Of a stretch of 64,000 nt of DNA, positions 18-61,140 are shown one piece after another (position 1 is the stretch's first letter; every line of letters starts with the position of its first letter). A program made the position numbers and the translations under genes. Source of the DNA: an uncultured Ruminococcus sp. (lineage in GTDB: Bacteria > Bacillota > Clostridia > Oscillospirales > Ruminococcaceae). The stretch lies in the NCBI GenBank assembly GCA_947566125.1, contig CANOIR010000004.1:1-64000 (forward strand). The letters are read 5' to 3'. The notes beneath the pieces were generated by a model. The model was not told where the DNA came from and did no database searches. It saw only the letters and a program-made list of their open reading frames with translations.

Positions 18-1439
18 ATGAACAAATATAAACAACTTGCGTCAAATACAATAATATTTGCGATTGGTTCTTTTGGCTCAAAGATTTTGCTGTTGTTTCT
101 TACAAAACTTTATACGGCAAATATAAATCCTGCTGATAACAGTACAAAAGAGCTTTTGGAAGTTACAGCAAATTTTTTGATTCCTCTTGTAACATTTTCC
201 ATTACAGAATCGATAATACGATTTGGACTTGACAGGAAATACAGTAAATCAAAAGTATATACAAATTCCCTTGCTATTACGGCTATAGGTGCTTTGATGA
301 TGTTGTCAATATCGCCTATGCTGTCGGTGATGCCGTTTGTAGATGGGTATACGTGGCTTCTTATGGTTTATGTATGTACGTCATCGCTTAGGTCGATAAA
401 CTCACAGTTTGTGCGTGCAAGAGGTCTTGTAAAGTTGTTTGCACTTGATGGAATTTTGGCAACGCTTTCACTGTTTATATTTAATGTAATTTTTATAGCA
501 GTACTTCAGCTTGGCGTAACAGGCTTTATGCTGTCGGTTATTTGTTCTGATTTCCTTTCAGCAGTATTTTTGTGGTTTACAGCCGGACTTAGAAAATACT
601 TTGATCCAAAGGCAATTGACGGCAGACTTAGTAAAGCAATGCTTGCTTTTTCACTGCCGCTTATCCCATCAACTCTTCTTTGGACAGTAACAGGTTTTTC
701 CGATCGTATATTTATAAGATATATGCCCGGACCGGAAGGTCTTGTTGGTGACGCTGCTGCCGGTATTTATGGAATAGCTAATAAGATACCGAACCTTGTT
801 TCAATGTTTTCAACAATATTTTTTCAGGCATGGAATATGTCTGCTATTCTGGAGAATGATTCAGAGGACAGAAGCCGTTTTTATGAAAGAGTTTTTGATG
901 CATATACGTCGTTTTTGTTTATTGCGGGAACGGCTATGATAGTATTTGTAAAACCTCTGTCTGCGATACTTATTGATACAAGTCAATTCCCTGAATATGG
1001 TACAGCATATTTGTATACTCCTGTGCTTATTGTTGCTGTAATAACTATGTGTCTTAATCAGTTTTTCAGCAGTGTATATGCAGCGACAAAACACACATCA
1101 CACTCGCTTTGGACGAGTTTAGTTGCAGCTGTTACAAATATTATTCTCAATGCACTTCTTGTATGGCTCTTTGGAATAAACGGTGCAGCTATTGCTACAT
1201 TTGCAGGATATTTTGCAAGCTATATAATTCGTCAAAGGGATGCAAGAAGATATGTTCCTTTTCCAATTGATCAGAAGAAGTTTTTTGTCAATCTTGTTGC
1301 AATGTTCACACTTGGATATATTGTAACTCATGATAACGTTCCCGGACAAATGATTATTATGTTTGTGGGGTTGATATTTATGGTAATATTTAATCGAAAT
1401 GCAATTGTAAATACACTGAAGCAGGTTAAATCAAGATAA
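18..1439 (+). CDS. Oligosaccharide flippase family membrane protein (Wzx/MATE-like)
   Basis: A 473-residue, almost entirely hydrophobic protein with about 12-14 predicted membrane segments. It starts with the amphipathic plus first-helix pattern typical of polysaccharide exporters (NTIIFAIGSFGSKILLLFLTK). Family members flip lipid-linked sugar repeat units across the cytoplasmic membrane, so a role in surface polysaccharide assembly is inferred. The start is supported by an AAGGAAG ribosome site just upstream. Its own operon lies outside the left edge, so no glycosyltransferase context is visible; the next gene, 32 bases on, is purine nucleoside phosphorylase. MurJ or another MATE-fold exporter are alternatives. 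Confidence 0.8.
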   Translation: MNKYKQLASNTIIFAIGSFGSKILLLFLTKLYTANINPADNSTKELLEVTANFLIPLVTFSITESIIRFGLDRKYSKSKVYTNSLAITAIGALMMLSISPMLSVMPFVDGYTWLLMVYVCTSSLRSINSQFVRARGLVKLFALDGILATLSLFIFNVIFIAVLQLGVTGFMLSVICSDFLSAVFLWFTAGLRKYFDPKAIDGRLSKAMLAFSLPLIPSTLLWTVTGFSDRIFIRYMPGPEGLVGDAAAGIYGIANKIPNLVSMFSTIFFQAWNMSAILENDSEDRSRFYERVFDAYTSFLFIAGTAMIVFVKPLSAILIDTSQFPEYGTAYLYTPVLIVAVITMCLNQFFSSVYAATKHTSHSLWTSLVAAVTNIILNALLVWLFGINGAAIATFAGYFASYIIRQRDARRYVPFPIDQKKFFVNLVAMFTLGYIVTHDNVPGQMIIMFVGLIFMVIFNRNAIVNTLKQVKSR

Positions 1440-1471
1440 AAATATTGATATAAAAGTAAGGAGGTCGTTTT

Positions 1472-2191
1472 ATGCCAACACCGCATAATAATGCAAATAA
1501 AGGAGATATTGCAAAGACTGTTTTAATGCCCGGTGATCCGCTTAGAGCAAAGTTTATAGCTGAAACATATCTTGAAGATGCAGTGCTTTATAATACAGTA
1601 CGCAATATGTACGGTTACACTGGTTTTTACAATGGCGTTAGAATTTCAGTTCAGGGCAGCGGTATGGGTATGCCGTCTATAGGCATATATTCATACGAAC
1701 TTTTTCATGAATACGATGTAGACAGAATAATAAGAGTAGGCACATCAGGCGGAGTAAGAGATGATGTAAAGCTTAGAGATGTTGTAATAGCACAAGCAGC
1801 TTGTACAAATTCTGCATATGCAAATCAGTATGATTTAGATGGAACATTTGCTCCGATCGCTGATTATGAGATGCTTGAAGCATCTGTAAACGCTGCCAGA
1901 GAGCTTGGTGTAAATGTTCGTGTCGGCAATGTTCTGTCATCAGATATATTTTATTACAGCAAGGAAAGTCCTCTTCCTATGTGGGGTAAAATGGGTGTGC
2001 TTGCTACTGAAATGGAAGCAGCGGCACTTTATATGAATGCAGCAGAGTCAGGTAAAAAAGCGCTCTGTATAACAACGGTATCTGATTGCCCGCTTAGAGG
2101 AGAATCCACAACAGCAGAGGAAAGACAAAATTCATTTTTGCAGATGATGGAAATTGCACTTAAAACAGCGTGCTTTTTTGAAAATAAATAG
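1472..2191 (+). CDS. deoD: Purine nucleoside phosphorylase, DeoD type
   Basis: Cleaves purine (deoxy)ribonucleosides with phosphate to base and sugar-1-phosphate in nucleoside salvage. The 239-residue length is that of the hexameric DeoD family. Visible motifs are the phosphate/substrate loop MPGDPLRAKFIAETYL near residue 19, the GSGMGMPSIGIYSYEL stretch, the RVGTSGG loop, the EMEAAALYM ribose-binding motif and a late VSDCPLRGE segment holding the catalytic Asp. Good ribosome site AAGGAGG seven bases before the ATG. A strong terminator follows at 2292. A second nucleoside phosphorylase (uridine type) is at 23902. Confidence 0.93.
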   Translation: MPTPHNNANKGDIAKTVLMPGDPLRAKFIAETYLEDAVLYNTVRNMYGYTGFYNGVRISVQGSGMGMPSIGIYSYELFHEYDVDRIIRVGTSGGVRDDVKLRDVVIAQAACTNSAYANQYDLDGTFAPIADYEMLEASVNAARELGVNVRVGNVLSSDIFYYSKESPLPMWGKMGVLATEMEAAALYMNAAESGKKALCITTVSDCPLRGESTTAEERQNSFLQMMEIALKTACFFENK

Positions 2192-5016: not shown

Positions 5017-5092
5017 GCGGATTTAGCTCATCTGGTAGAGCGCCACCTTGCCAAGGTGGAGGTAGCGAGTTCGAGCCTCGTAATCCGCTCCA
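5017..5092 (+). tRNA. tRNA-Gly (GCC), copy 2
   Basis: Base-for-base identical to the tRNA-Gly at 4838, 103 bases downstream. The intervening spacer is unlike the sequence flanking copy 1, so the duplicated unit is essentially the tRNA itself. No separate promoter is evident; it ends the first tRNA block before the terminator at 5097. Confidence 0.96.
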
Positions 5093-5096
5093 CGAG

Positions 5097-5130
5097 GTCT
5101 GTTCCAATAGGGGCGGACTTTTTGCTTTTT
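5097..5130 (+). terminator. Terminator of the first tRNA block
   Basis: Nine-pair stem GTCTGTTCC/GGGGCGGAC (with G-T pairs) around an AATA loop, followed by TTTTTGCTTTTT. Confidence 0.75.
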
Positions 5131-5388
5131 ACTTGCCTTTTTTGGTTCGCTGTTGATGGTTGGTGAAAGAGATTAAAAAGGAATTTTGTTTGTCTTTTTG
5201 CTTGAGCAGTTTGAACCATTTGATTTTTTAGCTTGACACAAAAATCGCAAAAAATCAGCACTTTATGATTCGATGTTTGATATAAACGCATATTTGCCGA
5301 TTATTTATGCAAACATTACATAATATGATTTTAAACATAATAAAATTTACAGCACAACGTCAAAGTTGCAAAAAAATCAAAAAAACGC
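5131..5388. other. Noncoding spacer between tRNA blocks
   Basis: About 260 AT-rich bases between the terminator of the first tRNA block and the tRNA-Pro promoter. I see no convincing gene, RNA or repeat here; short open frames on both strands lack ribosome sites. Confidence 0.5.
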
Positions 5389-5417
5389 TTGACAATATCT
5401 GCTGCATATGATATAAT
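5389..5417 (+). promoter_or_regulatory. Consensus sigma-A promoter of tRNA-Pro
   Basis: Perfect TTGACA, 17-base spacer, TATAAT, about 38 bases upstream of the tRNA 5' end. Confidence 0.9.
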
Positions 5418-32277: not shown

Positions 32278-34221
32278 TTATAGTCCGGCTGCGTGTTTTA
32301 CATAAAGTGATAGAACTTCTATAGCATCTGATATATTTATTTGATAATCGTTTACTATATCCATTGCAATTTCCTGAGAACGACAAAGCCTTTGAGGTAA
32401 CAATGCACTTCTTCCCGCATATACACTTAAAATATCTATAGCATCTGTAATTGTCAAATCGCCATCTCCATCACTGTCACCATATATTATATCATAGTCA
32501 TCATATATATATTCAGGATAGCTTATATTTTCACCGCTTTCTTCAAGTGATGCAAATATGCTCATAGCTGCTCTTTTGCATACAATAGGACCTGCATTTT
32601 CTGAAAGAGCTTTTTCGCCTATAGAAACAGCCTCTGAAATTATTTCATTATAATCTTCAACATTGCGTGCGGCTTCAAGTGCAGTGTTCAGCATAATAGG
32701 AACGTATTCATCTTTGTTTGTTCTTTCGGCAAATGCCTTGATAGGAACATTTCCCATACTGCCGTGTGAACCTTCACACATTGATGTATCCAACCATTCT
32801 CCGTCTGTATATATATAACTTTCATATGGATTTGCATTGCATTCAAGTGTAAATGTGCTTGTTAATGATGTATTCTCTTCAATAGGCAGATATACTAAAC
32901 GGTTTTTGTCCTTGCAAGACATTGTAAGGACAAGTGAGAATTGGTCGCCCTTCATAAGTTCTGCCGGATTTTCAAGCGGAACTGTATAATATCCGCTATT
33001 TGAAATAGTTCCGCTTGCTGAACCGATAATATGACCATCTGTTGGGTCTTGTGTATTTTCATTAAGCTTATATACAGAAATATTGTAAGTTGTATTCACA
33101 GGATTTCCTGATGGCATATAAAATGAGGCATCTGTTATAATGCTGTCATAATCTGCGGTGAATATATTTGCCGCAGCATCGAAGCTATATGATGTCACAT
33201 AACCTACACCGTCATATTCATAAACATCATCATGTTCCGATGCCTTTTCGACAATATATTTAAAAAATGAACCCATAGACGGATCTTCATATGATATCCA
33301 GAAGTAACCATCATCAAAAATATTATCGCCATAGCTGTTTTTTACAAGCCATGCACCGTCTTTGCTTGGCTGACTGCTTGGAGCAAAGTTCTCTTTGCTA
33401 TAGTCATCGTCCCAGCCTACTATGAGTGCAGCATGGTTTGCGTCTTGCTTATAAGATTTGCCTTTTGCATAGTAAGCATATGTTGTACCGTTGTCGTAAT
33501 AAAGTGAACGCTGACTATAATATGCCATTGATACTGCACCGCTTTCCATCAGCCAATTTTTAATTTTATTTATAGATGCTGTATCTGATGCATTTGCTAT
33601 ACTTTCACAAGTTTTAAGTCTGTATTGACCGCCGTATCTTGAATATTCAGAGTAATCAGAATTCCAATTTTGATATTGGCAAAGACTCTCTCTTTCAAAT
33701 CCCATTCCGGTAGCCAGTCCGGCAGAAGCCAATAAACTATTGCCGCCGTCTGCACCTTTTTTAGGTGTGTTTAAATAATCACCATAAAGCGGATCGAATG
33801 GGTCGGACTGTGATTTATATAGAAAATATCCAAGCTGAGCTTCTGACAGGTCAAGTTTAGATGCGTCATCTTCAAAGCCTTGTTTTAAGATATTTGATTC
33901 GCACGCACCCAAAACAGCAAATATATGACACATTCCTTCAGGACCTTGATTGCGTACCGGAGTTACAGCGTTTTCATCTCTAAGGTCATAGTGACTGGGC
34001 AGGTTTTGAACTTGTATTATAGATTGATCGTCTGATTTATTTTCATACTGTTTATAATATTCTTCTTCGTATGGCATATGAACATATCCTCCGCCGTTTC
34101 CGGGAACGAAACTATTTTCTTCGGCATAGGAATAATTTATATTTGTATTATATGCAAGTATGAACGCAAAAGATGTCAAGGCAGTAAAAATGGATATTGC
34201 TTTTTTAAAATTTGACTTCAT
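32278..34221 (-). CDS. Secreted papain-family (C1A) peptidase with lectin-like domain and dockerin
   Basis: 647 residues with a signal peptide (to about residue 33). C1A catalytic set is complete: oxyanion Gln92 and Cys98 in RNQGPEGMCHIFA, His263 in ANHAALIVGWDDDY, Asn295 in WLVKNSYG. A beta-rich domain of about 160 residues follows, as in the clostridial C1A lectin-like architecture. A helical linker then leads to a dockerin (GDSDGDGDLTITDAIDILSVY and a second repeat, MDIVNDYQINISDAIEVLSLY, whose loop departs from DxDxDG). A cellulosomal protease is inferred. GGAGG ribosome site; monocistronic. Confidence 0.88.
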   Translation of the reverse strand: MKSNFKKAISIFTALTSFAFILAYNTNINYSYAEENSFVPGNGGGYVHMPYEEEYYKQYENKSDDQSIIQVQNLPSHYDLRDENAVTPVRNQGPEGMCHIFAVLGACESNILKQGFEDDASKLDLSEAQLGYFLYKSQSDPFDPLYGDYLNTPKKGADGGNSLLASAGLATGMGFERESLCQYQNWNSDYSEYSRYGGQYRLKTCESIANASDTASINKIKNWLMESGAVSMAYYSQRSLYYDNGTTYAYYAKGKSYKQDANHAALIVGWDDDYSKENFAPSSQPSKDGAWLVKNSYGDNIFDDGYFWISYEDPSMGSFFKYIVEKASEHDDVYEYDGVGYVTSYSFDAAANIFTADYDSIITDASFYMPSGNPVNTTYNISVYKLNENTQDPTDGHIIGSASGTISNSGYYTVPLENPAELMKGDQFSLVLTMSCKDKNRLVYLPIEENTSLTSTFTLECNANPYESYIYTDGEWLDTSMCEGSHGSMGNVPIKAFAERTNKDEYVPIMLNTALEAARNVEDYNEIISEAVSIGEKALSENAGPIVCKRAAMSIFASLEESGENISYPEYIYDDYDIIYGDSDGDGDLTITDAIDILSVYAGRSALLPQRLCRSQEIAMDIVNDYQINISDAIEVLSLYVKHAAGL

Positions 34222-36491: not shown

Positions 36492-37526
36492 ATGAAAAAA
36501 ACAAGTAAAATATTATCATTTATAATAGGTTCAGCAATTGCAATTGGTACAATGGGTTCACTAAGTGCAAATGCATTCTATATGGAAAGAAGCGATATTC
36601 CTTTAACGCCTCCTGATGGTGAAGAACTTTATGAACTTGACTGTGAAAATGGAGAAGTTAGCTATAGAATAACTTCCGGAAAAGGTTTATCAGTATATGG
36701 CTTTGATTTTTTCACATACAATAATATAGATATAACGGTAAAAGATGGCGATAGTGCAAGTGCGGTAGCTGCAAAGTATCTGTCAGATTTAAAATTTGAT
36801 GAGCGTTTACTTTCTAGAGATGGTTCTCATATTTATTTGTACGATAAACATGTAAGTGGTGATGACCCAAGAACTCATGAGTCTGTAGAGGATAAATATA
36901 AACAACTAAGTGAAATATGTGCTAAGATGTATGAAGATGGTGTTGTTGAAGAGGCGATATTAGTACCTATGAAATCTTCATATTATACTGAAGAATTGTA
37001 TCCTCATATTCTTTGCAAATATCTTTACGGACCGAATAAAGAGATGTTTCAGGATAAGGTAGATGAACTTCAGGCACTTGTAGATCAGTATACAGAATAT
37101 GGTGAGGTTAGTATCCATAACTATGGTGGTCCTAAGAATGAAATATATTACATTATCGTTGATCTTGAAAAAGACAATAAAACTGACTTTGACACATATG
37201 ATAAATTGGCTGCCCTTCGTGATGAAATAGCAGAGCGTTATGATTATGGGAAAGTTATGATAGATTATATGCGACCAGAAACTATGCAGGATGCCGCATC
37301 ACCTGAAATCAACCTTCTTGACCCATATATCTGCGATATAGATGCAAGTGGTAAAGCAGATATTGCAGATGCTACAACCATTCTTAGTGCATATGCAGAA
37401 AACGCCGCTGGTATGAGAACTGCTGTCGATGATAAAATGGATGTAAACAGCGACGGTAATGTTAATGTAGAAGATGCAACATATGTACTCAACTATTATT
37501 CTCAGGCTGCTGCCGGTCTTAGATAA
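36492..37526 (+). CDS. Secreted dockerin protein, paralogue of the 57.1 kb gene
   Basis: 344 residues. Signal peptide MKKTSKILSFIIGSAIAIGT..SANA, almost identical in style to that of the 57078 protein. The middle (about 60-265) contains two copies of a short alpha/beta unit: a helix SEICAKMYEDGVVEEAILVPM and a later helix DELQALVDQYTEYGEVSIHNYG; the 57078 protein has the same SEMYKAGCISEARYVPI element. Function unknown, no catalytic motif. C-terminal dockerin: CDIDASGKADIADATTILSAY and MDVNSDGNVNVEDATYVLNYY. GGGGG ribosome site; single gene with a long folded leader. Confidence 0.78.
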   Translation: MKKTSKILSFIIGSAIAIGTMGSLSANAFYMERSDIPLTPPDGEELYELDCENGEVSYRITSGKGLSVYGFDFFTYNNIDITVKDGDSASAVAAKYLSDLKFDERLLSRDGSHIYLYDKHVSGDDPRTHESVEDKYKQLSEICAKMYEDGVVEEAILVPMKSSYYTEELYPHILCKYLYGPNKEMFQDKVDELQALVDQYTEYGEVSIHNYGGPKNEIYYIIVDLEKDNKTDFDTYDKLAALRDEIAERYDYGKVMIDYMRPETMQDAASPEINLLDPYICDIDASGKADIADATTILSAYAENAAGMRTAVDDKMDVNSDGNVNVEDATYVLNYYSQAAAGLR

Positions 37527-52621: not shown

Positions 52622-53827
52622 TTAAGTTGTACCATATCTGTACATGTTTTCACAGAATATTCCATAGCCTCTTGCAGGGTCGTCCACAAATACATGAGTA
52701 ACTGCTCCTACAAGTTTACCGTTTTGAATTATCGGTGAACCGCTCATGCCTTGAACTATTCCGCCAGTATTATTGATAAGACGTTCATCTGTTATGTGTA
52801 TTACCATATTTTTGGTGTTGTCTTTACCGGTTTGGTCTATATCTTCAATTTCTGCGCTGTAGTGAACAGGTTCGTTGTTGTCGATCGTACATATTATTTC
52901 CGCTTTTCCGGTTTTTATCTCTTGTTTAAATGCCATTGGAACGGCTTCCTTTTTGGGATAGGCGGCAGACATTTTTCCAAATACTCCGCAGCGGTTGTTG
53001 CAAAGAAGTGAGCCTGTATCGCTGTTTCCGCTGAATTCTCCTTCAAGCATACCTGGTTCGCCTTTTTCACCTTTTATAATATCTTTAATTGTTACCGGAC
53101 AGGCACTTCCTTCGCTTATTGGAATACATACTCCTGTATCGCTGTCGCAAATAGGGTGACCAAGTCCGCCGAATGTCGTTGATTCAGGGTCGTAAAATGT
53201 CATTGTTCCAATTCCGGCAAGACTATCACGCACCCAGATCCCAGCGGTGTAGCAATCTTCGGAGAGAGAGTATGCAGGTATAAGTTGACAGCTTTTTTGT
53301 TTTCCATCACGTGTGAATTCAATTTCTACTTTATCGCCGTTTGCTTTGCAAATAGCGTCTTTTAATGATGCATTTGATGTTACAATATTGCCGTCCACTG
53401 ATTCTATTATATCTCCTGCACGAAGACCGGCGTCCTTTGCAGGACAAATCGAACCATCTTTTGTATCTGCCGAACCGAGCCGTATTACCATAACACCGTC
53501 CATTTTTAGTCGTATTCCAAAGGGTTCTCCACCGGGTATAAGCATTGGAGTATCAATTTCTTCTATATCAGCAGTTTTAACAGGAATTACACCAAAAAGT
53601 TTTAGCGATGCCGTACAAGTGCTTGATGAATTCTGATAAAAAGCGGCAAGTGAATCTTCTTTGGCAGTATCTGCTGTAATAGGCAGAAATGTTGAAAGTT
53701 CTAGATCACTGCCTGATGATATATAATAACTGTCGGATAACTTGAATGAATAATATCCGGCAGCTGTAAAAGTGTTTAGTAAAGCAGCGGAAAGTAAGAT
53801 CGCTGTAATGCGAAGATGTTTAAACAT
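52622..53827 (-). CDS. spoIVB: SpoIVB peptidase (S55)
   Basis: Forespore serine peptidase that signals to the mother cell to activate pro-sigma-K in Bacillus. 401 residues from the ATG at 53827 behind AAGAAGG. One N-terminal membrane segment, PDZ domain (about 100-180, GLRAGDIIESVDGNIV), then the S55 domain: GIWVRDSLAGIGTMTFYDP, His224 in GGLGHPI, an Asp in HITDERL (347), and Ser364 in GMSGSPII, followed by GAVTHVFVDDPARGYGIF. Divergent from spo0A rather than directly upstream in the same direction as in Bacillus. Confidence 0.95.
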   Translation of the reverse strand: MFKHLRITAILLSAALLNTFTAAGYYSFKLSDSYYISSGSDLELSTFLPITADTAKEDSLAAFYQNSSSTCTASLKLFGVIPVKTADIEEIDTPMLIPGGEPFGIRLKMDGVMVIRLGSADTKDGSICPAKDAGLRAGDIIESVDGNIVTSNASLKDAICKANGDKVEIEFTRDGKQKSCQLIPAYSLSEDCYTAGIWVRDSLAGIGTMTFYDPESTTFGGLGHPICDSDTGVCIPISEGSACPVTIKDIIKGEKGEPGMLEGEFSGNSDTGSLLCNNRCGVFGKMSAAYPKKEAVPMAFKQEIKTGKAEIICTIDNNEPVHYSAEIEDIDQTGKDNTKNMVIHITDERLINNTGGIVQGMSGSPIIQNGKLVGAVTHVFVDDPARGYGIFCENMYRYGTT

Positions 53828-54101
53828 AGATGACCTTCTTTCTGTTTTATATTTTGTCTTTTTATAATTTTTATGAAAGCTTGCGTTTATAATATGAGCA
53901 TTAAAGAATTTTTTATTAGCGAAAAAAGCAGGCAATTGTGTTTCCTGAAAAACAAAAAAATTTTTTTTAAAGCTTTAAATCATAACAATAAAGAGATTAT
54001 AAATTGAGCAAAGTATATGAAGTCTGAAGAAAGCTTAAAAAATGCATGTTTTCGGCAAAAAATATTATGAAATCATTGACATCTTACGACAAAGCTGAAT
54101 C

Positions 54102-54130
54102 TTGTGGAAAACTCTCGCATTGTGTTAAAA
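54102..54130 (+). promoter_or_regulatory. Possible spo0A promoter with 0A-box-like sites
   Basis: TTGTGG, 17-base spacer, TTAAAA. The -35 region TTGTGGAAAA is one base off a 0A box (TTGTCGAAAA). A second site, TTTGTCGTA on the minus strand (54085-54093), lies about ten bases upstream. Autoregulation by Spo0A is plausible. Confidence 0.45.
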
Positions 54131-54156
54131 TATTAGAGCAGGTGAGAGGAGGATAT

Positions 54157-54927
54157 ATGAATCACAAGGTTAAAGTATTGATCGGTGATGACAGCGTAGA
54201 ATATGGTCTTTCTTGTGCTAATTGCTTTCGTGCAAAAGGAATTTATACAGTTACACGCAAAAAGGACGGAAAAGTTTTGCTTGAGTCGATACAAGCAGAT
54301 TGTCCTGAAGTCGTGATTATGGATGCAGTTATGCTGCATTATGATGCGGTAGAGGTAATGACAAAACTTCGGGCATTGGGAGGAAAGCTTCCTTATTTTA
54401 TTATTACCTCAGCGTATGATAATGCGTTTCTTGAAAGGCAGGTAGTAGAGGCAGGAGCTACATATTTTGTACAAAGACCTTTTGATAATGAGATGATGTG
54501 CAGTAGAGCTCAAAAGCTTTTGTGCGGAGAACCAGTTCAAAAGATAAGTGAATCACACGATCTTGAAGTAATAGTAACCGAAATGATTCATCAGCTTGGA
54601 GTACCTGCACATATAAAAGGCTATCATTATTTAAGATCAGCTATACTTATGGCAATAGATGATAACGAGCTGTTGGAAAGTATAACAAAGCTTTTATATC
54701 CAAGTGTAGCAAAGAAGTATGAAACCACTTCCTCAAGAGTTGAAAGGGCAATACGTCATGCGATTGAAATTGCGTGGGACAGAGGCAATATAGAAACATT
54801 GAATTCGTTTTTCGGCTATACGGTAAATACTTGTAAAGGAAAGCCGACTAATTCAGAGTTTATAGCGCTTATTACGGACAAGCTGCGTTTGCAGTACAGA
54901 AACAATAGTATAAAGAAATTTGCATAA
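54157..54927 (+). CDS. spo0A: Sporulation master regulator Spo0A
   Basis: 256 residues from ATG 54157 behind GAGAGGAGG. Receiver domain: acidic pair Asp11/Asp12, phospho-acceptor Asp56 (VVIMDAVM), Thr84 (FIITSAYD), but the invariant Lys of KPFD is Arg107 (FVQRPFD). C-terminal Spo0A DNA-binding domain is strongly conserved: [67 protein letters not shown]. Controls entry into sporulation. Confidence 0.96.
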
Positions 54928-54930
54928 TGC

Positions 54931-54959
54931 TTGCATAAATACTCCTTATGTGTTATAAT
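54931..54959 (+). promoter_or_regulatory. Promoter of the flavoreductase gene
   Basis: TTGCAT, 17-base spacer, TATAAT. Confidence 0.75.
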
Positions 54960-55022
54960 ATGTTATAATGTTTAGTATATGGCTAAAGTTTGTGACATTT
55001 ATAGAGAGGAGCAGGTATTGAA

Positions 55023-55529
55023 ATGGGCTTTGTAAAGAAAAATGTTTATGAATTAAGTGGCAATCCATTTAATGAGATAGGCAAGGAATGGTTTCTCATA
55101 ACAGCAGGCAATGGTGAAAATTACAACACAATGACTGCATCATGGGGATTTATGGGAGTAATGTGGGGTACGCCTTCAATTTTGTGTGCAGTGCGTACAA
55201 ATCGACATACTTTTAAATTTATGGAAGACAGTGATATATATACTATCAGTTTCTTTGATGAAAGTTATAGAAATGCACTTAATTTTTGCGGTACAAAATC
55301 CGGCAGAGATTATGACAAGGCAAAGGAAACAGGTCTTACGCCTATTGAGATTGACGGAGCAGTGACATTTGAGCAGGCAAAGCGTGTTTTTGTTTGCAAA
55401 AAGAGATATTCTGAAATGATGAATCAAGAATCTTTTACTGAAAAGTCAACTTATGATAAGTGGTACAGCACTGACCCTATGCACAAGCAGTATATAGGTG
55501 AGATCATAGCTGTATATGAAAATGAATAA
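55023..55529 (+). CDS. Flavin reductase-like FMN-binding protein
   Basis: 168 residues, split-barrel flavoprotein. FLITAGNGENYNTMTASWGFMGVMWGTPSILCAVRTNRHTFKFME and YTISFFDESYRNALNFCGTKSGRDYDK are typical of the FlrA/flavoredoxin-like group. Redox partner unknown. GAGAGGAG ribosome site; single gene. Confidence 0.88.
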   Translation: MGFVKKNVYELSGNPFNEIGKEWFLITAGNGENYNTMTASWGFMGVMWGTPSILCAVRTNRHTFKFMEDSDIYTISFFDESYRNALNFCGTKSGRDYDKAKETGLTPIEIDGAVTFEQAKRVFVCKKRYSEMMNQESFTEKSTYDKWYSTDPMHKQYIGEIIAVYENE

Positions 55530-55537
55530 CATTAGCT

Positions 55538-55580
55538 AAAAAAGAGCTGCTGTGGGAAATCCATGGCAGTTCTTTTTATT
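55538..55580 (+). terminator. Terminator after the flavoreductase gene
   Basis: AAAAAGAGCTGC/GCAGTTCTTTTT stem with an inner TGG/CCA pairing, followed by TTTTTATTATT. Confidence 0.8.
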
Positions 55581-55684
55581 ATTTATTATAAGCTATAAAG
55601 CATGGCGAAATATGATGAAAGGTGATATGTATAATATGATTACTTTAATCCAAAAAAATATAATTATTATATGAATAATATATA

Positions 55685-55713
55685 TTGACTTTTAAATTAA
55701 ATTATAGTATAAT
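55685..55713 (+). promoter_or_regulatory. Promoter of the N-dockerin protease operon
   Basis: TTGACT, 17-base spacer, TATAAT, followed by a leader of about 115 AT-rich bases. Confidence 0.8.
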
Positions 55714-55833
55714 TTAATTGATGATAAAAATTATTGCAGGTGATTTTTATAAGTATATTTTTTGCCAAATTATGGTCTTTTTATTTTTAATTTTTCATCA
55801 TTATATATAACTTATAAAGGAGCGATGTATTAT

Positions 55834-57075
55834 ATGAGGAAAACAAATAAGCTATCGGCTTTGACCATAGCGGCGTGTATTTCTGTGGGATTAGCAGTGC
55901 CACTTAATTTGGGCAGTGTTACTGCTGATGCGGCAACGTGGAAATGTGGAGATGTTGATAATGATGGTCAATTAACCATGATGGATCAAGTGAGTCTTAA
56001 TAAATATCTTGTTGGCAAGATAGAACTTGTTGATTATACCAAGGCTGATACAAATGCTGATTGTCTTGTTGACATTGTTGACAGCAAAATTTTGCTTATG
56101 CGTTTGGCTAATCAGGTATCAGCACTGCCGTATACAAGGTATGGTGGAGGTTCACAGTACGCAAATGTTGGTGCCAAATCTGTTAATGAATCAAGAGAAT
56201 ATACTATATTTGATGCTAAAACGGGAGAGGCAGTAAATAGCTATATTTTAGATTCAAATCCAATTAATGATAATGCAAGAGCTATTATTGGCAAAGATGA
56301 CAGGTATAGAGATGATTCATTGCCTGGTGTAGTTAAGATTTTTGTTGATGGTTTGTCAAGTACTGGATTTGTTGTTGATGATCATACTATAGCTACAGCT
56401 GCTCATTGTGTTTTTAATTCTGGCACTATTTCAACTTCTGGTTTTAATTATTCTGAAGCATCAGTAGATGAGATACGAGTTATTGGCAAATCAGGTAATC
56501 TCATAAAAACGATTAGCGGAATGTATAATGTTCATGTTCCTAACTCATATATTTCAAATATGGTAGCAGCCAGAAATGCCCATAAAAATAATAATGAAGA
56601 ACTTAAACAAGAAAAATTAAAAATTGCTAATGCTTATGATTATGCACTTATAACTGTAGAAGAAGATCTTAGCGAATATGCTTGCTTTGATCTTGGCATA
56701 GCAACAGATGGTATGATGTCAGATTCACAGAAATTATATTGTACCGGTTTTCCAGATAGAGCATTAGGAGTAGGCGTAAATTTTTCTACTGATAAACGTT
56801 TTACTGGTGAGGGTTATATGCAGCCGGATTTGTTGTCAGAATTTCCTGAAAGAAAAATTTATTATAATATAGATATGTCAGGAGGCAACAGCGGCGGTCC
56901 TGTTTATGTAAAAAACACGATAGGCACTACAACATATTATACAGTTGTTGGTATAAATACACAAGCAGTGGATTCAGATAACGATGGGCATGAAGATATA
57001 AACAACGGAACTCAAATGACAACTGAACTTTTACATTTTTACAAAAACAACGAGTATATAGAATGGGGTGAATAA
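55834..57075 (+). CDS. Secreted trypsin-like serine protease with N-terminal dockerin
   Basis: 413 residues from ATG 55834 (GGAG eleven bases before). Signal peptide to about residue 34, then directly a dockerin: CGDVDNDGQLTMMDQVSLNKYL and ADTNADCLVDIVDSKILLMRL (about 37-92). The protease domain follows with a complete triad: His191 (TAAHCVF), Asp269 (NAYDYALI), Ser353 (GGNSGGPVYV), in the style of V8/glutamyl endopeptidases. Dockerin before the catalytic domain is the reverse of the usual order. Two bases separate it from the next gene. Confidence 0.85.
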   Translation: MRKTNKLSALTIAACISVGLAVPLNLGSVTADAATWKCGDVDNDGQLTMMDQVSLNKYLVGKIELVDYTKADTNADCLVDIVDSKILLMRLANQVSALPYTRYGGGSQYANVGAKSVNESREYTIFDAKTGEAVNSYILDSNPINDNARAIIGKDDRYRDDSLPGVVKIFVDGLSSTGFVVDDHTIATAAHCVFNSGTISTSGFNYSEASVDEIRVIGKSGNLIKTISGMYNVHVPNSYISNMVAARNAHKNNNEELKQEKLKIANAYDYALITVEEDLSEYACFDLGIATDGMMSDSQKLYCTGFPDRALGVGVNFSTDKRFTGEGYMQPDLLSEFPERKIYYNIDMSGGNSGGPVYVKNTIGTTTYYTVVGINTQAVDSDNDGHEDINNGTQMTTELLHFYKNNEYIEWGE

Positions 57076-57077
57076 TT

Positions 57078-58178
57078 ATGAAAAAAACAAGTAAAATTTT
57101 ATCTCTTATTTTAGGAGCATCAATGGCAGCAAGTGCAGTGCCTAGTGTTTTAGCAAGTGCAGATTATCGTTACTATCCTATGGAAGACTTTGATATTACA
57201 AAACCACCTATAGATTATTCATATTTTCAGGATACAGATCTTTATAAAGATAATATAGACGATTTTGGCATATATAGAGGATTAGCATATAGAAGTGATG
57301 TAGCAACAGATATAGTTGCTGTATACCGTGATTTCGATACTAATTACTTACATCTTACAGTTACTGATGATAAATGGGAAGAAATTTACGATAAGTATAA
57401 AGATAGGCTTGGTCTAAGCTGCACCGGAAAACTTCCTGATAATACTGTCCATATGAATGAAAATACTGAATTTGGTAAAGACTGCACTCCGGAAGAGTGT
57501 AAAGAGCTTATAGAAGAAAAGAAAAATGAAATAAAACAAAAATACGAAATAATTATGAATATGTGTTCTGAGATGTATAAAGCCGGATGTATATCTGAGG
57601 CGAGATACGTACCTATCAATGTAGGTTATGAATATTATTATGAAATAAATGCAAGAAGTTTTCGTATTAAGGATTATGGAGATATTACCATTGAAGATAT
57701 TGAAAATGTCATCAATTCTGTTTCAGATAAATGTGATGTTAGTGTAGATGCTGAAGGAGCATATTTTGTTAGTGTTAACATTGACGGCGGAACGGAATTG
57801 TTAGATGAATTCAATGCGGTTATCAATGCGATTGAAGAAAAGTATAGCGACAGCTGTAAGATCGATATTTTTACTTGGTATCGTGATATAGCTATGGCGC
57901 CAAGGCATAGGGCAATATATGATCCATTAACTATCGACCTTATAGCAGAACTTGAGAAAAATGCAGGTATTGCCTACGGCGATGCAAACACTGATAATCA
58001 TATAGGCATTCAAGATGCTGTTTTAATGAACAAATTTATGGTTGGTGCCGTTGATTTTAATGAAGACCAGGACAAAGTCACTGATTTGAACGGCGACAAT
58101 GTTGTAGACAGCGAAGATTTAGGCATTCTTTTGCAATATCTTGTTGATGATATTGATACATTTCCAGTAGCAGAATAA
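57078..58178 (+). CDS. Secreted dockerin protein coupled to the protease
   Basis: 366 residues. Signal peptide MKKTSKILSLILGASMAAS..ASA shares its first nine residues with the 36492 protein. The middle has the same recurring units as that paralogue (IIMNMCSEMYKAGCISEARYVPI, ENVINSVSDKCDVSVD, DEFNAVINAIEEKYSDSCKIDIF) and no catalytic motif. C-terminal dockerin: GDANTDNHIGIQDAVLMNKFM and TDLNGDNVVDSEDLGILLQYL. Start codon two bases after the protease stop, with GGGGTG inside the protease end, so translation is coupled. A partner, inhibitor or substrate role for the protease is inference. Confidence 0.78.
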   Translation: MKKTSKILSLILGASMAASAVPSVLASADYRYYPMEDFDITKPPIDYSYFQDTDLYKDNIDDFGIYRGLAYRSDVATDIVAVYRDFDTNYLHLTVTDDKWEEIYDKYKDRLGLSCTGKLPDNTVHMNENTEFGKDCTPEECKELIEEKKNEIKQKYEIIMNMCSEMYKAGCISEARYVPINVGYEYYYEINARSFRIKDYGDITIEDIENVINSVSDKCDVSVDAEGAYFVSVNIDGGTELLDEFNAVINAIEEKYSDSCKIDIFTWYRDIAMAPRHRAIYDPLTIDLIAELEKNAGIAYGDANTDNHIGIQDAVLMNKFMVGAVDFNEDQDKVTDLNGDNVVDSEDLGILLQYLVDDIDTFPVAE

Positions 58179-58186
58179 GTATAAAT

Positions 58187-58222
58187 AAAGCCGGCTTGCA
58201 TATATGTAAGCCGGCTTTTGCA
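58187..58222 (+). terminator. Terminator after the protease operon
   Basis: Perfect AAAGCCGGCTT/AAGCCGGCTTT stem, ten-base AT loop, then TTTTGC. Confidence 0.8.
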
Positions 58223-58309
58223 TAAATACAAGTAATATACAGGAAAGCAGGATATTTTATACATAAATAATGTATAAATTACATATTTAAGCCGAAAATA
58301 AAAATATTT

Positions 58310-58327
58310 TACGTATATTTATGCAAA
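58310..58327 (+). promoter_or_regulatory. ARG box (ArgR operator)
   Basis: TACGTATATTTATGCAAA fits the ArgR/AhrC half-site pair consensus TNTGNATWWWWATNCANA at all but one specified position. It lies four bases before the -35 of the argG promoter. A second palindrome, TGTA-TAAAT-TACA, lies at 58271-58283. Arginine repression of the operon is inferred. Confidence 0.72.
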
Positions 58328-58331
58328 ACCC

Positions 58332-58359
58332 TTGACATTTTAGAAAAAGCGTGTATAAT
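58332..58359 (+). promoter_or_regulatory. Promoter of the arginine operon
   Basis: TTGACA, 16-base spacer, TATAAT, 82 bases before argG. Confidence 0.88.
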
Positions 58360-58441
58360 AAGAAATAGATTAAAAAATAACTGCGTTAGCAGTAATGTTA
58401 TGATTGATATTATTATAACTAATATATAAGGAGAGATTATC

Positions 58442-59671
58442 ATGGCAAAGGAAATTAAAAAGGTTGTTTTGGCATATTCCGGCGGTCTGGATACTTCTAT
58501 TATCATTCCGTGGCTCAAGGAAAATTACAATAACTGCGAAGTAATAGCAGTATCCGCTGACGTAGGTCAGGGTACAGAGCTTGATGGTCTGGAAGAAAAG
58601 GCTATAAAGACAGGTGCTTCTAAACTTATCGTTCTTGATCTTAAGAAAGAATTCGTTGAGGATTATGTATTCCCAACAGTTCAGGCTGGTGCTGTTTATG
58701 AAAACCGTTACCTGCTTGGTACTTCATTCGCTCGTCCAATTATCGGTAAGAGATTGGCTGAGATCGCTCTTGAAGAAAATGCAGATGCTATCTGCCACGG
58801 TGCAACAGGTAAGGGCAACGATCAGGTTCGTTTTGAATTGGCCATTAAGGCTTATGCTCCTGATATGAAGATCATTGCTCCTTGGAGAGAATGGTCAATC
58901 AAGAGCCGTGACGAAGAAATCGATTATGCAGAGGCTCATAACATTCCACTGAAGATAAATCGTGAAACTAATTATTCTAAGGATAAGAACCTGTGGCATC
59001 TGTCACATGAAGGTCTTGACCTTGAAGATCCGGCTAATGAGCCACAGTATGAAAAGGAAGGCTTCCTTGAAATGGGAGTATCTCCAATTCAGGCTCCCGA
59101 TAAGCCAACTTATGTTTCTATCCACTTTGAAAAGGGTATTCCTACAGCTATTGACGGCAAGGAAATGGGTGCTGTAGAAATTATTGAAACTCTTAATAAG
59201 CTCGGCGGTGAAAATGGTATCGGTCTTGCTGACCTCGTTGAAAACCGTCTTGTTGGTATGAAGTCAAGAGGTGTTTATGAAACACCTGGCGGTGCTATTC
59301 TGTATCATGCTCATGATGTTCTCGAAACAATTACTATTGATAAGGAAACTGCAAGAATGAAGCAGTATATCGGCATCAAGTTTGCTGACATTGTTTACAA
59401 TGGTCAGTGGTATACTCCTCTGAGAGAAGCTCTGACAGCTTTTGTTGATGAAACACAAAAGACTGTTACAGGTGATGTTAAGCTGAAGCTGTACAAGGGC
59501 AATATCATCAATGCTGGTGTAACTTCTCCATATACTCTTTATGATGAAGAAGTTGCTACTTTTGATGCTGAAGATGTTTACAATCAGAAGGATGCTGAAG
59601 GCTTTATCAACCTGTTCGGTCTGCCGATCTGGGTTAAGGCAAAGCTTGATCAGAACCGTGATAATAAGTAA
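58442..59671 (+). CDS. argG: Argininosuccinate synthase
   Basis: Joins citrulline and aspartate with ATP. 409 residues. PP-loop [15 protein letters not shown] at residue 10, [14 protein letters not shown], and [14 protein letters not shown] are typical. AAGGAGA ribosome site. First gene of the arginine operon and the only one directly after the ARG-box promoter. Confidence 0.97.
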
Positions 59672-59696
59672 TTACTGCATATCATAAAAAAAGAGG

Positions 59697-59722
59697 AAGG
59701 CGGCGGCGTGCCGCCTTTTTTC
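59697..59722 (+). terminator. Terminator between argG and argH
   Basis: AAGGCGGC/GCCGCCTT, eight perfect GC-rich pairs, GGCGT loop, then TTTTTTC. A strong intrinsic terminator inside the arginine gene row. Confidence 0.85.
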
Positions 59723-59766
59723 GATTGACAGGCAAAAAAGAAAATGAAAGGCAGGTTGAATCAGTA

Positions 59767-61140
59767 ATGGCACTTTGGGCAGGAAGATTTTCCAAGGAAA
59801 TAGATGAAACAGTAAATGCATTCAATTCCTCTATAGCATTTGATGCAAGAATGTATAAGCACGATGTGCAGGGCAGTATCGCTCATGCTACTATGCTCGG
59901 CAAATGCGGTATTATTTCTGAAGAGGACAGTGAAATTATTATAAAGGGTCTTAAAGAAATTTTGGCTGATATTGAGTCCGGAAAGCTTGAATTTGATCCT
60001 AATGCAGAAGATATACATATGTTCATAGAAGCTGAACTTACAAAGCGTTATGGTGATGTTGGAAAAAGACTTCACACATCACGTTCAAGAAACGATCAGG
60101 TTGCACTTGATCTAAGACTTTATCTGCGTGACGAGATAGCGGAAATAAGATCTATTGTGCATAAGCTTTGTGAAGTCCTTATCACTCTGGCGGAGAAGAA
60201 TACTGAAACAGTAATGCCGGGATATACTCATCTTCAAAGAGCACAGCCAGTAACTTTTGCACATCATCTTATGGCATATGTGCAGATGTTTATTCGTGAT
60301 ATTGACAGACTGGACGATACAGCTAAGCGTATGAATGTTTGTCCGCTGGGCAGTGGTGCACTTGCAGGAACTACATATAATATTGACCGCACCATGACCG
60401 CAGAACTTTTGGGATTTGACGCTCCTATGGCAAACAGCCTTGACGGCGTTTCCGATAGAGATTATTGCATAGAGCTTGCAAATACTCTTTCTATTATAAT
60501 GATGCATTTGTCAAGATTTTCAGAAGAAGTCGTTCTTTGGTGTTCATGGGAATTTAAATTTATTGAACTTGATGATGCCTATGCTACAGGTTCTTCTATA
60601 ATGCCGCAGAAGAAAAATCCGGATATTACAGAGCTTATTCGTGGCAAGACAGCAAGAGTTTACGGCGATTTGAATACTTTGCTTACTATGATGAAGGGAC
60701 TTCCGCTTGCGTACAATAAGGATATGCAGGAGGATAAGGAAGCTATTTTCGATGCAGTTGATACAGTAAAGCTTTGTGTTAATACATTTATACCAATGAT
60801 GGAAACACTCACGGTAAATGCTGAAAATATGAGAGCTGCTGCTGCAAAGGGATTTATTAATGCCACAGATTGTGCGGACTATCTTGTTAAAAAGGGAATG
60901 CCTTTCCGTGATGCTTATAAGATTTCCGGAACACTTGTTGCAGAGTGCATTTCAAAGGGACTTACACTTGAAACACTGCCGATTGAAGAATATAAGAAAA
61001 TGACTGAGCTTTTTGATGAAGATGTATATGAAGCTATCAGCCTTGAAACTTGCGTAAAGGGCAGACTTTCACAGGGAGGTCCATCTCCAAAGGCAGTGTC
61101 TGTTCAGATAGAACTTGCTAAAAAACAATTGGAAGAGTGA
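59767..61140 (+). CDS. argH: Argininosuccinate lyase
   Basis: Releases fumarate to give arginine. 457 residues from ATG 59767, behind AAAGGCAGG; an in-frame TTG 42 bases upstream is unlikely. MALWAGRFSKEIDETVNAFNSSIAFD start, TSRSRNDQVALD and signature SSIMPQKKNPD. A TTGACA at 59725 has no matching -10, so argH probably depends on read-through of the argG terminator. Confidence 0.96.
   Translation: MALWAGRFSKEIDETVNAFNSSIAFDARMYKHDVQGSIAHATMLGKCGIISEEDSEIIIKGLKEILADIESGKLEFDPNAEDIHMFIEAELTKRYGDVGKRLHTSRSRNDQVALDLRLYLRDEIAEIRSIVHKLCEVLITLAEKNTETVMPGYTHLQRAQPVTFAHHLMAYVQMFIRDIDRLDDTAKRMNVCPLGSGALAGTTYNIDRTMTAELLGFDAPMANSLDGVSDRDYCIELANTLSIIMMHLSRFSEEVVLWCSWEFKFIELDDAYATGSSIMPQKKNPDITELIRGKTARVYGDLNTLLTMMKGLPLAYNKDMQEDKEAIFDAVDTVKLCVNTFIPMMETLTVNAENMRAAAAKGFINATDCADYLVKKGMPFRDAYKISGTLVAECISKGLTLETLPIEEYKKMTELFDEDVYEAISLETCVKGRLSQGGPSPKAVSVQIELAKKQLEE

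Follow-up and report, generated by a model that had tools for sequence, protein, structure and literature searches.

The window, that is, the whole 64,000-nucleotide stretch of an uncultured Ruminococcus sp. that was analysed (contig CANOIR010000004.1, positions 1 to 64,000), carries two closely spaced genes near its right end. The first gene (55825-57075, +; ATG at 55825 or in frame at 55834, stop at 57075) encodes a secreted serine protease made of a signal peptide, a dockerin, a short pro-segment and a V8/trypsin-like catalytic domain. The latter matched Trypsin_2 (PF13365, E 2.8e-9) and Trypsin (PF00089, E 2e-7), both above cut-off, and the triad His191/Asp269/Ser353 (413-aa numbering) is complete within the recognised trypsin-fold domain, in the His-Asp-Ser order expected of an S1 peptidase. 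An alignment of 16 relatives showed the triad residues to be invariant. The dockerin (55945-56133, +) precedes the catalytic domain, as the original prediction had it, and its match to PF00404 (at 55948-56106) is borderline, with 18.7 bits in one run and 23.7 bits, for a cut-off of 22.9, in a genome-wide run. The pro-segment and the catalytic domain (56161-57066, +) are conserved together (profile of the 16 relatives, E 1.3e-103), and the pro-segment motif YxVYDAxTG...YTL is kept in each of the aligned proteases. V8-like enzymes share a triad order, an IGxDxR mature start and a GRxT-type C-terminal motif, and in these traits the protease resembles the V8/glutamyl endopeptidases (MEROPS S1B). 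It differs from them by its dockerin, either fused or, in relatives, encoded by a separate ORF, and possibly by its S1 pocket: at the alignment position that we tentatively equate with the Glu-selecting His of V8, the window enzyme has Asn (GIN) and 7 of the 16 relatives have His.

The second gene starts 2 bp after the protease stop (57078-58178, +; ATG at 57078) and encodes a 366-aa protein with a signal peptide, a middle domain and a C-terminal dockerin (57975-58142, +) that scored over the PF00404 cut-off in both the Pfam search (25.2 bits) and the genome-wide run (29.9 bits); the predicted secreted dockerin partner is thus present. A sigma-70-like promoter, TTGACT-17-TATAAT (55685-55713, +), identified by its match to 11 of 12 consensus positions, probably starts the two-gene unit. 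Terminator-like hairpins lie upstream (55539-55577) and after the partner gene (about 58187-58218, +; ViennaRNA -23.7 kcal/mol for 58176-58235), the latter not being listed by the separate scan that gave the promoter. Framed in this way, the pair looks like a closed operon as judged from its sequence.

The middle domain of the partner had been described as belonging to no assignable family, and profile searches of Pfam, NCBIfam and PDB sequences bore this out. Serpin and cysteine-protease-inhibitor families of Pfam and NCBIfam gave no match to the partner, and Inhibitor_I9 (PF05922) was absent at E <= 1 among the matches listed for 26 family members and 20 divergent partners. Weak matches to FtsZ_C, Prefoldin and Ntox50 were found in single members only and were rejected, and a 22-residue match obtained in a contig scan with the single partner protein was spurious. 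The proposed paralogue (36492-37526, +) was confirmed as homologous to the partner over its full length (BLASTP E 6e-11, 24% identity); it has the same two-unit domain, a C-terminal dockerin of another group, and no adjacent V8-like protease. The repeated SEMYKAG...EA.YVP-like unit is real and common to both proteins. Their shared signal peptide start, MKKTSKILS, is real too but uninformative by itself, as it is close to the MKKxxKxLx start that is general in the family. Elsewhere in the window, a gene at 32278-34221(-) encodes a C1 protease of the papain family that also contains a Pfam Lectin_like domain and a C-terminal dockerin; this dockerin and the one on the solitary paralogue at 36492 belong to one group.

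To compare the two paralogues as the original prediction had proposed, AlphaFold models were built from these two window proteins only (57078 and 36492). Both models display a variable N-terminal part followed by the element order beta-alpha-beta-beta-alpha-beta twice, at low mean pLDDT (52.5 and 50.4), so that the comparison yielded the same order of elements at a confidence of only 50-52. The models suggest, with low confidence, that the partner and 36492 consist of two tandem ferredoxin-like units. In the partner, the first predicted unit (57345-57611, +; residues ~90-178) holds the conserved EMCxEMYxAGxIxxA helix and its best blocks reach pLDDT 70-86; the second, also from a low-confidence model (57627-57899, +; residues ~184-274), aligned with designed and natural ferredoxin-like folds with VIA-align Z up to 9.9 (81 residues, rmsd 2.5). 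Fold searches with both models list many ferredoxin-like folds: Foldseek with the 57078 model also retrieved tandem ferredoxin-like and ACT proteins, and the 36492 model gave a best VIA-align Z of 8.4, most rows being near 7. Profiles of the N-terminal and C-terminal halves of the partner showed no detectable similarity to each other, and the tandem units therefore rest on the predicted order of elements only. Subtilisin propeptides and I9 inhibitors belong to the ferredoxin-like fold class, which is also very common and by itself says nothing about function. I9 and subtilisin-propeptide structures were absent from the top 50 fold matches, which is no evidence either way since other ferredoxin-like folds fill these lists. 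Ovorubin (9uaj), a snail egg protein reported to be a protease inhibitor, was matched by both models (Foldseek E 0.007 and 8.9e-4) and was given no weight, as it appeared among many unrelated proteins with this fold.

The genome of the window contains 5 cohesin matches, 2 of them over cut-off, and 62 dockerin matches in 2.19 Mb, which makes a scaffold plausible. A 293-aa protein of this genome with a cohesin and a dockerin (L003:1295-2176(-)) resembles an adaptor scaffoldin. The proposal that the partner docks next to the protease found no sequence support: the dockerins of the two proteins fall into different groups among the dockerins of this genome, and the two proteins may therefore not sit adjacent on the scaffold.

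The conservation of the pair was assessed with a protease profile (E <= 1e-8) in 397 genomes of the family and in 394 genomes of the order. Relatives of the protease were found in 35 of the 397 family genomes, in 21 genera, and a single strong relative was found outside the family among the genomes of the order. At all 36 loci of this protease type with readable downstream sequence, the next secreted protein encoded on the same strand carries an anchor, which is a dockerin in 35 cases and an LPXTG motif in one (L132); four of the 35 dockerins (L133, L137, L138, L147), being partial or scoring under profile thresholds, were identified by eye. The cassette is spread over nine genera and two families. 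Gaps between protease and partner range from -14 to +39 bp with two exceptions: the decayed protease of L110 is separated from its partner by 152 bp, and the two genes of L228 have a free dockerin gene between them. Among dockerin-free distant V8-like proteases, none of eight (L148-L151, L153-L156) has an anchored neighbour. As only a few per cent of genes carry dockerins, chance cannot explain the linkage; the original prediction had staked itself on linkage to proteases in other genomes, and on this point it stands. Combined, the conserved pair, the equipment of both members for scaffold attachment and the presence of cohesins and 62 dockerin matches in the genome support the claim of a protease module.

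Several loci extend this picture. The cassette occupies a conserved chromosomal place, with all or part of a spoIVB-like gene, a response regulator gene and a flavin-reductase-like gene on one side and argG and argH on the other, in the window (52622-61140) and at L061, L062, L066 and L104; at L066 the partner is found in this place without a protease. At L132, the partner (314-1483(-)) consists of three alpha/beta repeats and carries the LPXTG wall anchor where other partners have a dockerin; the gene after it reads like a sortase. At L154 (1402-2903), in another genus, a dockerin-free V8-like protease is followed by a lipoprotein with a C-terminal beta-alpha-beta-beta-alpha-beta-like part, which may be a lipid-anchored version of the arrangement.

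The dockerin of the protease takes one of two forms. It is fused at the N-terminus in 16 proteases, including the window enzyme, and the partner is kept in these cases. At 15 other loci (L063, L065, L068, L103, L105-L108, L111, L131, L134, L136, L144, L145 and L228), a dockerin-free protease with a signal peptide of its own adjoins a second ORF, which encodes a signal peptide and a dockerin. These stand-alone ORFs of ~90-115 aa, mostly 90-104, contain a signal peptide, one dockerin and nothing else (L063:4799-5095(-), L065:9593-9892(-), L103:994-1302(-), L105:5448-5744, L106:7196-7492(-), L107:7580-7927(-), L108:4888-5202, L111:6497-6772(-), L131:1130-1408, L134:2430-2705(-), L136:2403-2681(-), L144:1118-1432, L145:314-613 and L228:2273-2575; that of L068 is cut by the contig end), and they lie upstream of the protease in all loci but L228. 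Five cases have an unreadable upstream part or a decayed protease (L058, L104, L069, L110 and the remnant in L107), and the sequence before the L142 protease showed no dockerin ORF. The stand-alone dockerins may be free competitors, non-covalent subunits or products of gene fission.

To define the partner family, 16 genomes of the genus and the 397 family genomes were searched with the single protein and then with a 28-row profile. Members were found in 12 of the 16 genus genomes; the profile detected none in the other genera sampled among the 397 genomes. They share a 250-residue core, the first half of which is well conserved (motifs YN..., IYxKYxxxLDFD, YD, ExK and EMCxEMYxAGxIxxAxY) and the second half more variable, and nearly all carry a dockerin at the C-terminal end. 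About half of them immediately follow a protease gene, as one copy or as two or three in tandem, and about half are solitary; the 597-aa partner of L106 contains two copies of the core. The alignment of the family reveals no obvious conserved cleavage linker.

The two genes of the cassette differ in divergence and in survival. In 11 cognate pairs, the mean identity was 21% for partner cores versus 40% for catalytic domains, and partner identity was the lower value in 55 of 55 comparisons. Distances among proteases were not correlated with those among partners (Mantel r -0.075, p 0.67, 11 pairs), so that no co-phylogeny signal emerged, in a test with nearly saturated partner identities and with two or three partners at some loci. 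In other genera, similarity was undetectable for most partners, both among themselves and to the core family. By eye, several of these, L133, L135, L140 and L142 among them, show the same tandem alpha/beta pattern, and others (L138, L139, L141, L144, L146 and L147) look like different or smaller domains. Profile comparison detected no homology to the core family for the divergent partners of L105/L110, L109, L111 and L112. A second family of dockerin partners (L105:6715-7806, L110:2218-3318 and L065:11346-12314(-); pairs 43% and 27% identical) occupies the slot downstream of the protease in two genomes and lies near the protease locus in the third. As for survival, all readable proteases have a partner, and partners occur without a protease. 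Genomes G138, G198 and G204 (drafts, 85-97% complete) have solitary partners and no detectable protease, and intact partners are found behind decayed proteases at L107 (116-aa remnant, 5043-5393), L110 and L065 (61-aa remnant); one such case lies at position 74214 of contig C15 in genome G202. The solitary partners and those that outlive their protease suggest that the protease depends on the partner more strongly than the partner on it.

These features resemble those of known protease-inhibitor gene pairs. In the staphopain-staphostatin, SpeB-Spi and Bacteroides C10-Bfi systems, protease genes are accompanied by adjacent, co-transcribed genes for very divergent inhibitors, and unrelated inhibitors serve related proteases (PMC3462683). 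By analogy, these pairs appear to be the closest described logic: in the staphostatin, Spi, Bfi and Bti pairs as here, the gene of a secreted protease adjoins a highly divergent partner gene on the same strand. Their proteases are papain-like cysteine proteases, whereas the window enzyme is a serine protease; staphostatins and Spi are small and described as cytoplasmic, and the Bacteroides inhibitors have 116-138 aa (PMC3462683), whereas the present partners are secreted, 172-597 aa long and fitted with a dockerin or a wall anchor. Dockerin-borne inhibitors are known from cellulosomes, namely serpins (PinA) of C. thermocellum and Dpi of C. cellulolyticum, and they have been proposed to restrain cellulosome proteolysis (PMC12484212). 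The partner is likewise dockerin-borne; unlike them, it matches no inhibitor family of Pfam and is fixed beside a protease gene. Cellulosomal proteases have been described as well, as an S8 enzyme with a double dockerin in C. thermocellum and an X-dockerin papain-like peptidase in R. flavefaciens (PMC12484212, PMC3573020). The window protease shares the dockerin with these enzymes, which belong to other catalytic families and for which the available parts of the sources mention no fixed dockerin partner gene. The predicted ferredoxin-like units of the partner recall Inhibitor_I9, to which the partner has no sequence match and which targets subtilases.

We propose, at a little short of even confidence, that the partner is a dedicated scaffold-borne inhibitor of the neighbouring protease. 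The asymmetry between the two genes, the fast divergence of the partner, its variable number and the unrelated domains found in its slot are more easily explained by a partner with a protective role than by a foldase or a substrate kept for the protease. The first gene would supply a secreted V8/trypsin-like protease equipped for cohesin attachment and the second, probably on the same message, a secreted and scaffold-attached partner whose two ferredoxin-like units would bind the protease and keep it inactive, in the manner of a propeptide acting in trans. Loss or cleavage of the partner, or an excess of protease, would release the enzyme and turn on local proteolysis, which could then serve turnover, processing or nutrition. 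The missing co-phylogeny signal, the low-confidence models, the absence of a match to Pfam inhibitor families and the different groups of the two dockerins speak against this reading. Binding, inhibition, co-transcription and the trigger are what we infer here, and because some of the distant partners are different and partly smaller domains, one inhibitory mechanism shared by all is not assured. In an extended form that we consider doubtful, the cassette would have three parts, protease, stand-alone secreted dockerin peptide and dockerin- or wall-anchored inhibitor, that are made as separate gene products and assemble on the scaffold; scaffold occupancy would gate proteolysis and unrelated inhibitor domains would have been recruited in different genera.

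An obligatory chaperone and a dedicated substrate are both somewhat disfavoured, since partners are intact beside decayed proteases and occur in genomes where no protease is detected, and since unrelated-looking domains take the partner slot in other genera. Ferredoxin-like pro-regions serve as foldases in other proteases, and the partner could be a propeptide-like foldase acting in trans that the protease needs after secretion, with inhibition secondary or absent. The strict coupling of protease to partner and the translation-linked gene order agree with this, and staphostatins have been suggested to act as chaperones (PMC3462683); such a helper is nevertheless unlikely, as partners persist where no protease is detected or only a decayed gene is left, every protease keeps its own conserved pro-segment, and other genera have unrelated domains in the partner position. 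Control by location rather than by inhibition, the partner binding the protease and bringing it to the scaffold (to the wall at L132), would suit the ~15 loci where the protease polypeptide lacks a dockerin and the partner has one, the LPXTG-anchored partner of L132, and L142, where the partner carries the only dockerin since none was seen upstream. We hold it to be quite improbable, because the partner is kept at the 16 loci, the window included, where the protease has a fused dockerin, and because a stand-alone dockerin ORF is present where the protease has none. That the protease cleaves the partner to free an active fragment (signal, antimicrobial or adhesin) would account for the fixed gene order, the fast divergence and a partner that is secreted and anchored, and is very unlikely given the solitary partners without detectable protease, the intact partners beside decayed ones and the lack of an obvious conserved cleavage linker in the partner-family alignment. 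Two independent accessory cellulosome proteins, together for co-regulation only, would explain the missing co-phylogeny signal (Mantel r -0.075) and the solitary family members, and have equally slight prospects against a linkage of 36/36 in nine genera, non-homologous partners included, where dockerin gene density would lead one to expect a few per cent.

In conclusion, a protease with a gene-linked partner is a known kind of system. In the literature searched, largely papers outside subscription journals, no dockerin-bearing glutamyl endopeptidase was found, nor any dockerin-bearing trypsin-like protease of Ruminococcus, and the cellulosomal serine-protease version, the secreted anchored partner of an undescribed family and the free dockerin ORFs appear to be undescribed there. 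The roles that a recent review proposes for cellulosome proteases are turnover, processing or nitrogen recycling (PMC12484212), and a gene pair kept in all readable cases offers a direct handle on what these enzymes do. The stand-alone dockerin peptides beside many of the proteases are a second oddity of these loci. If the partner inhibits its protease, cellulosomes would carry a built-in, gene-linked control of proteolysis, and the partners would represent a new family of secreted serine-protease inhibitors.
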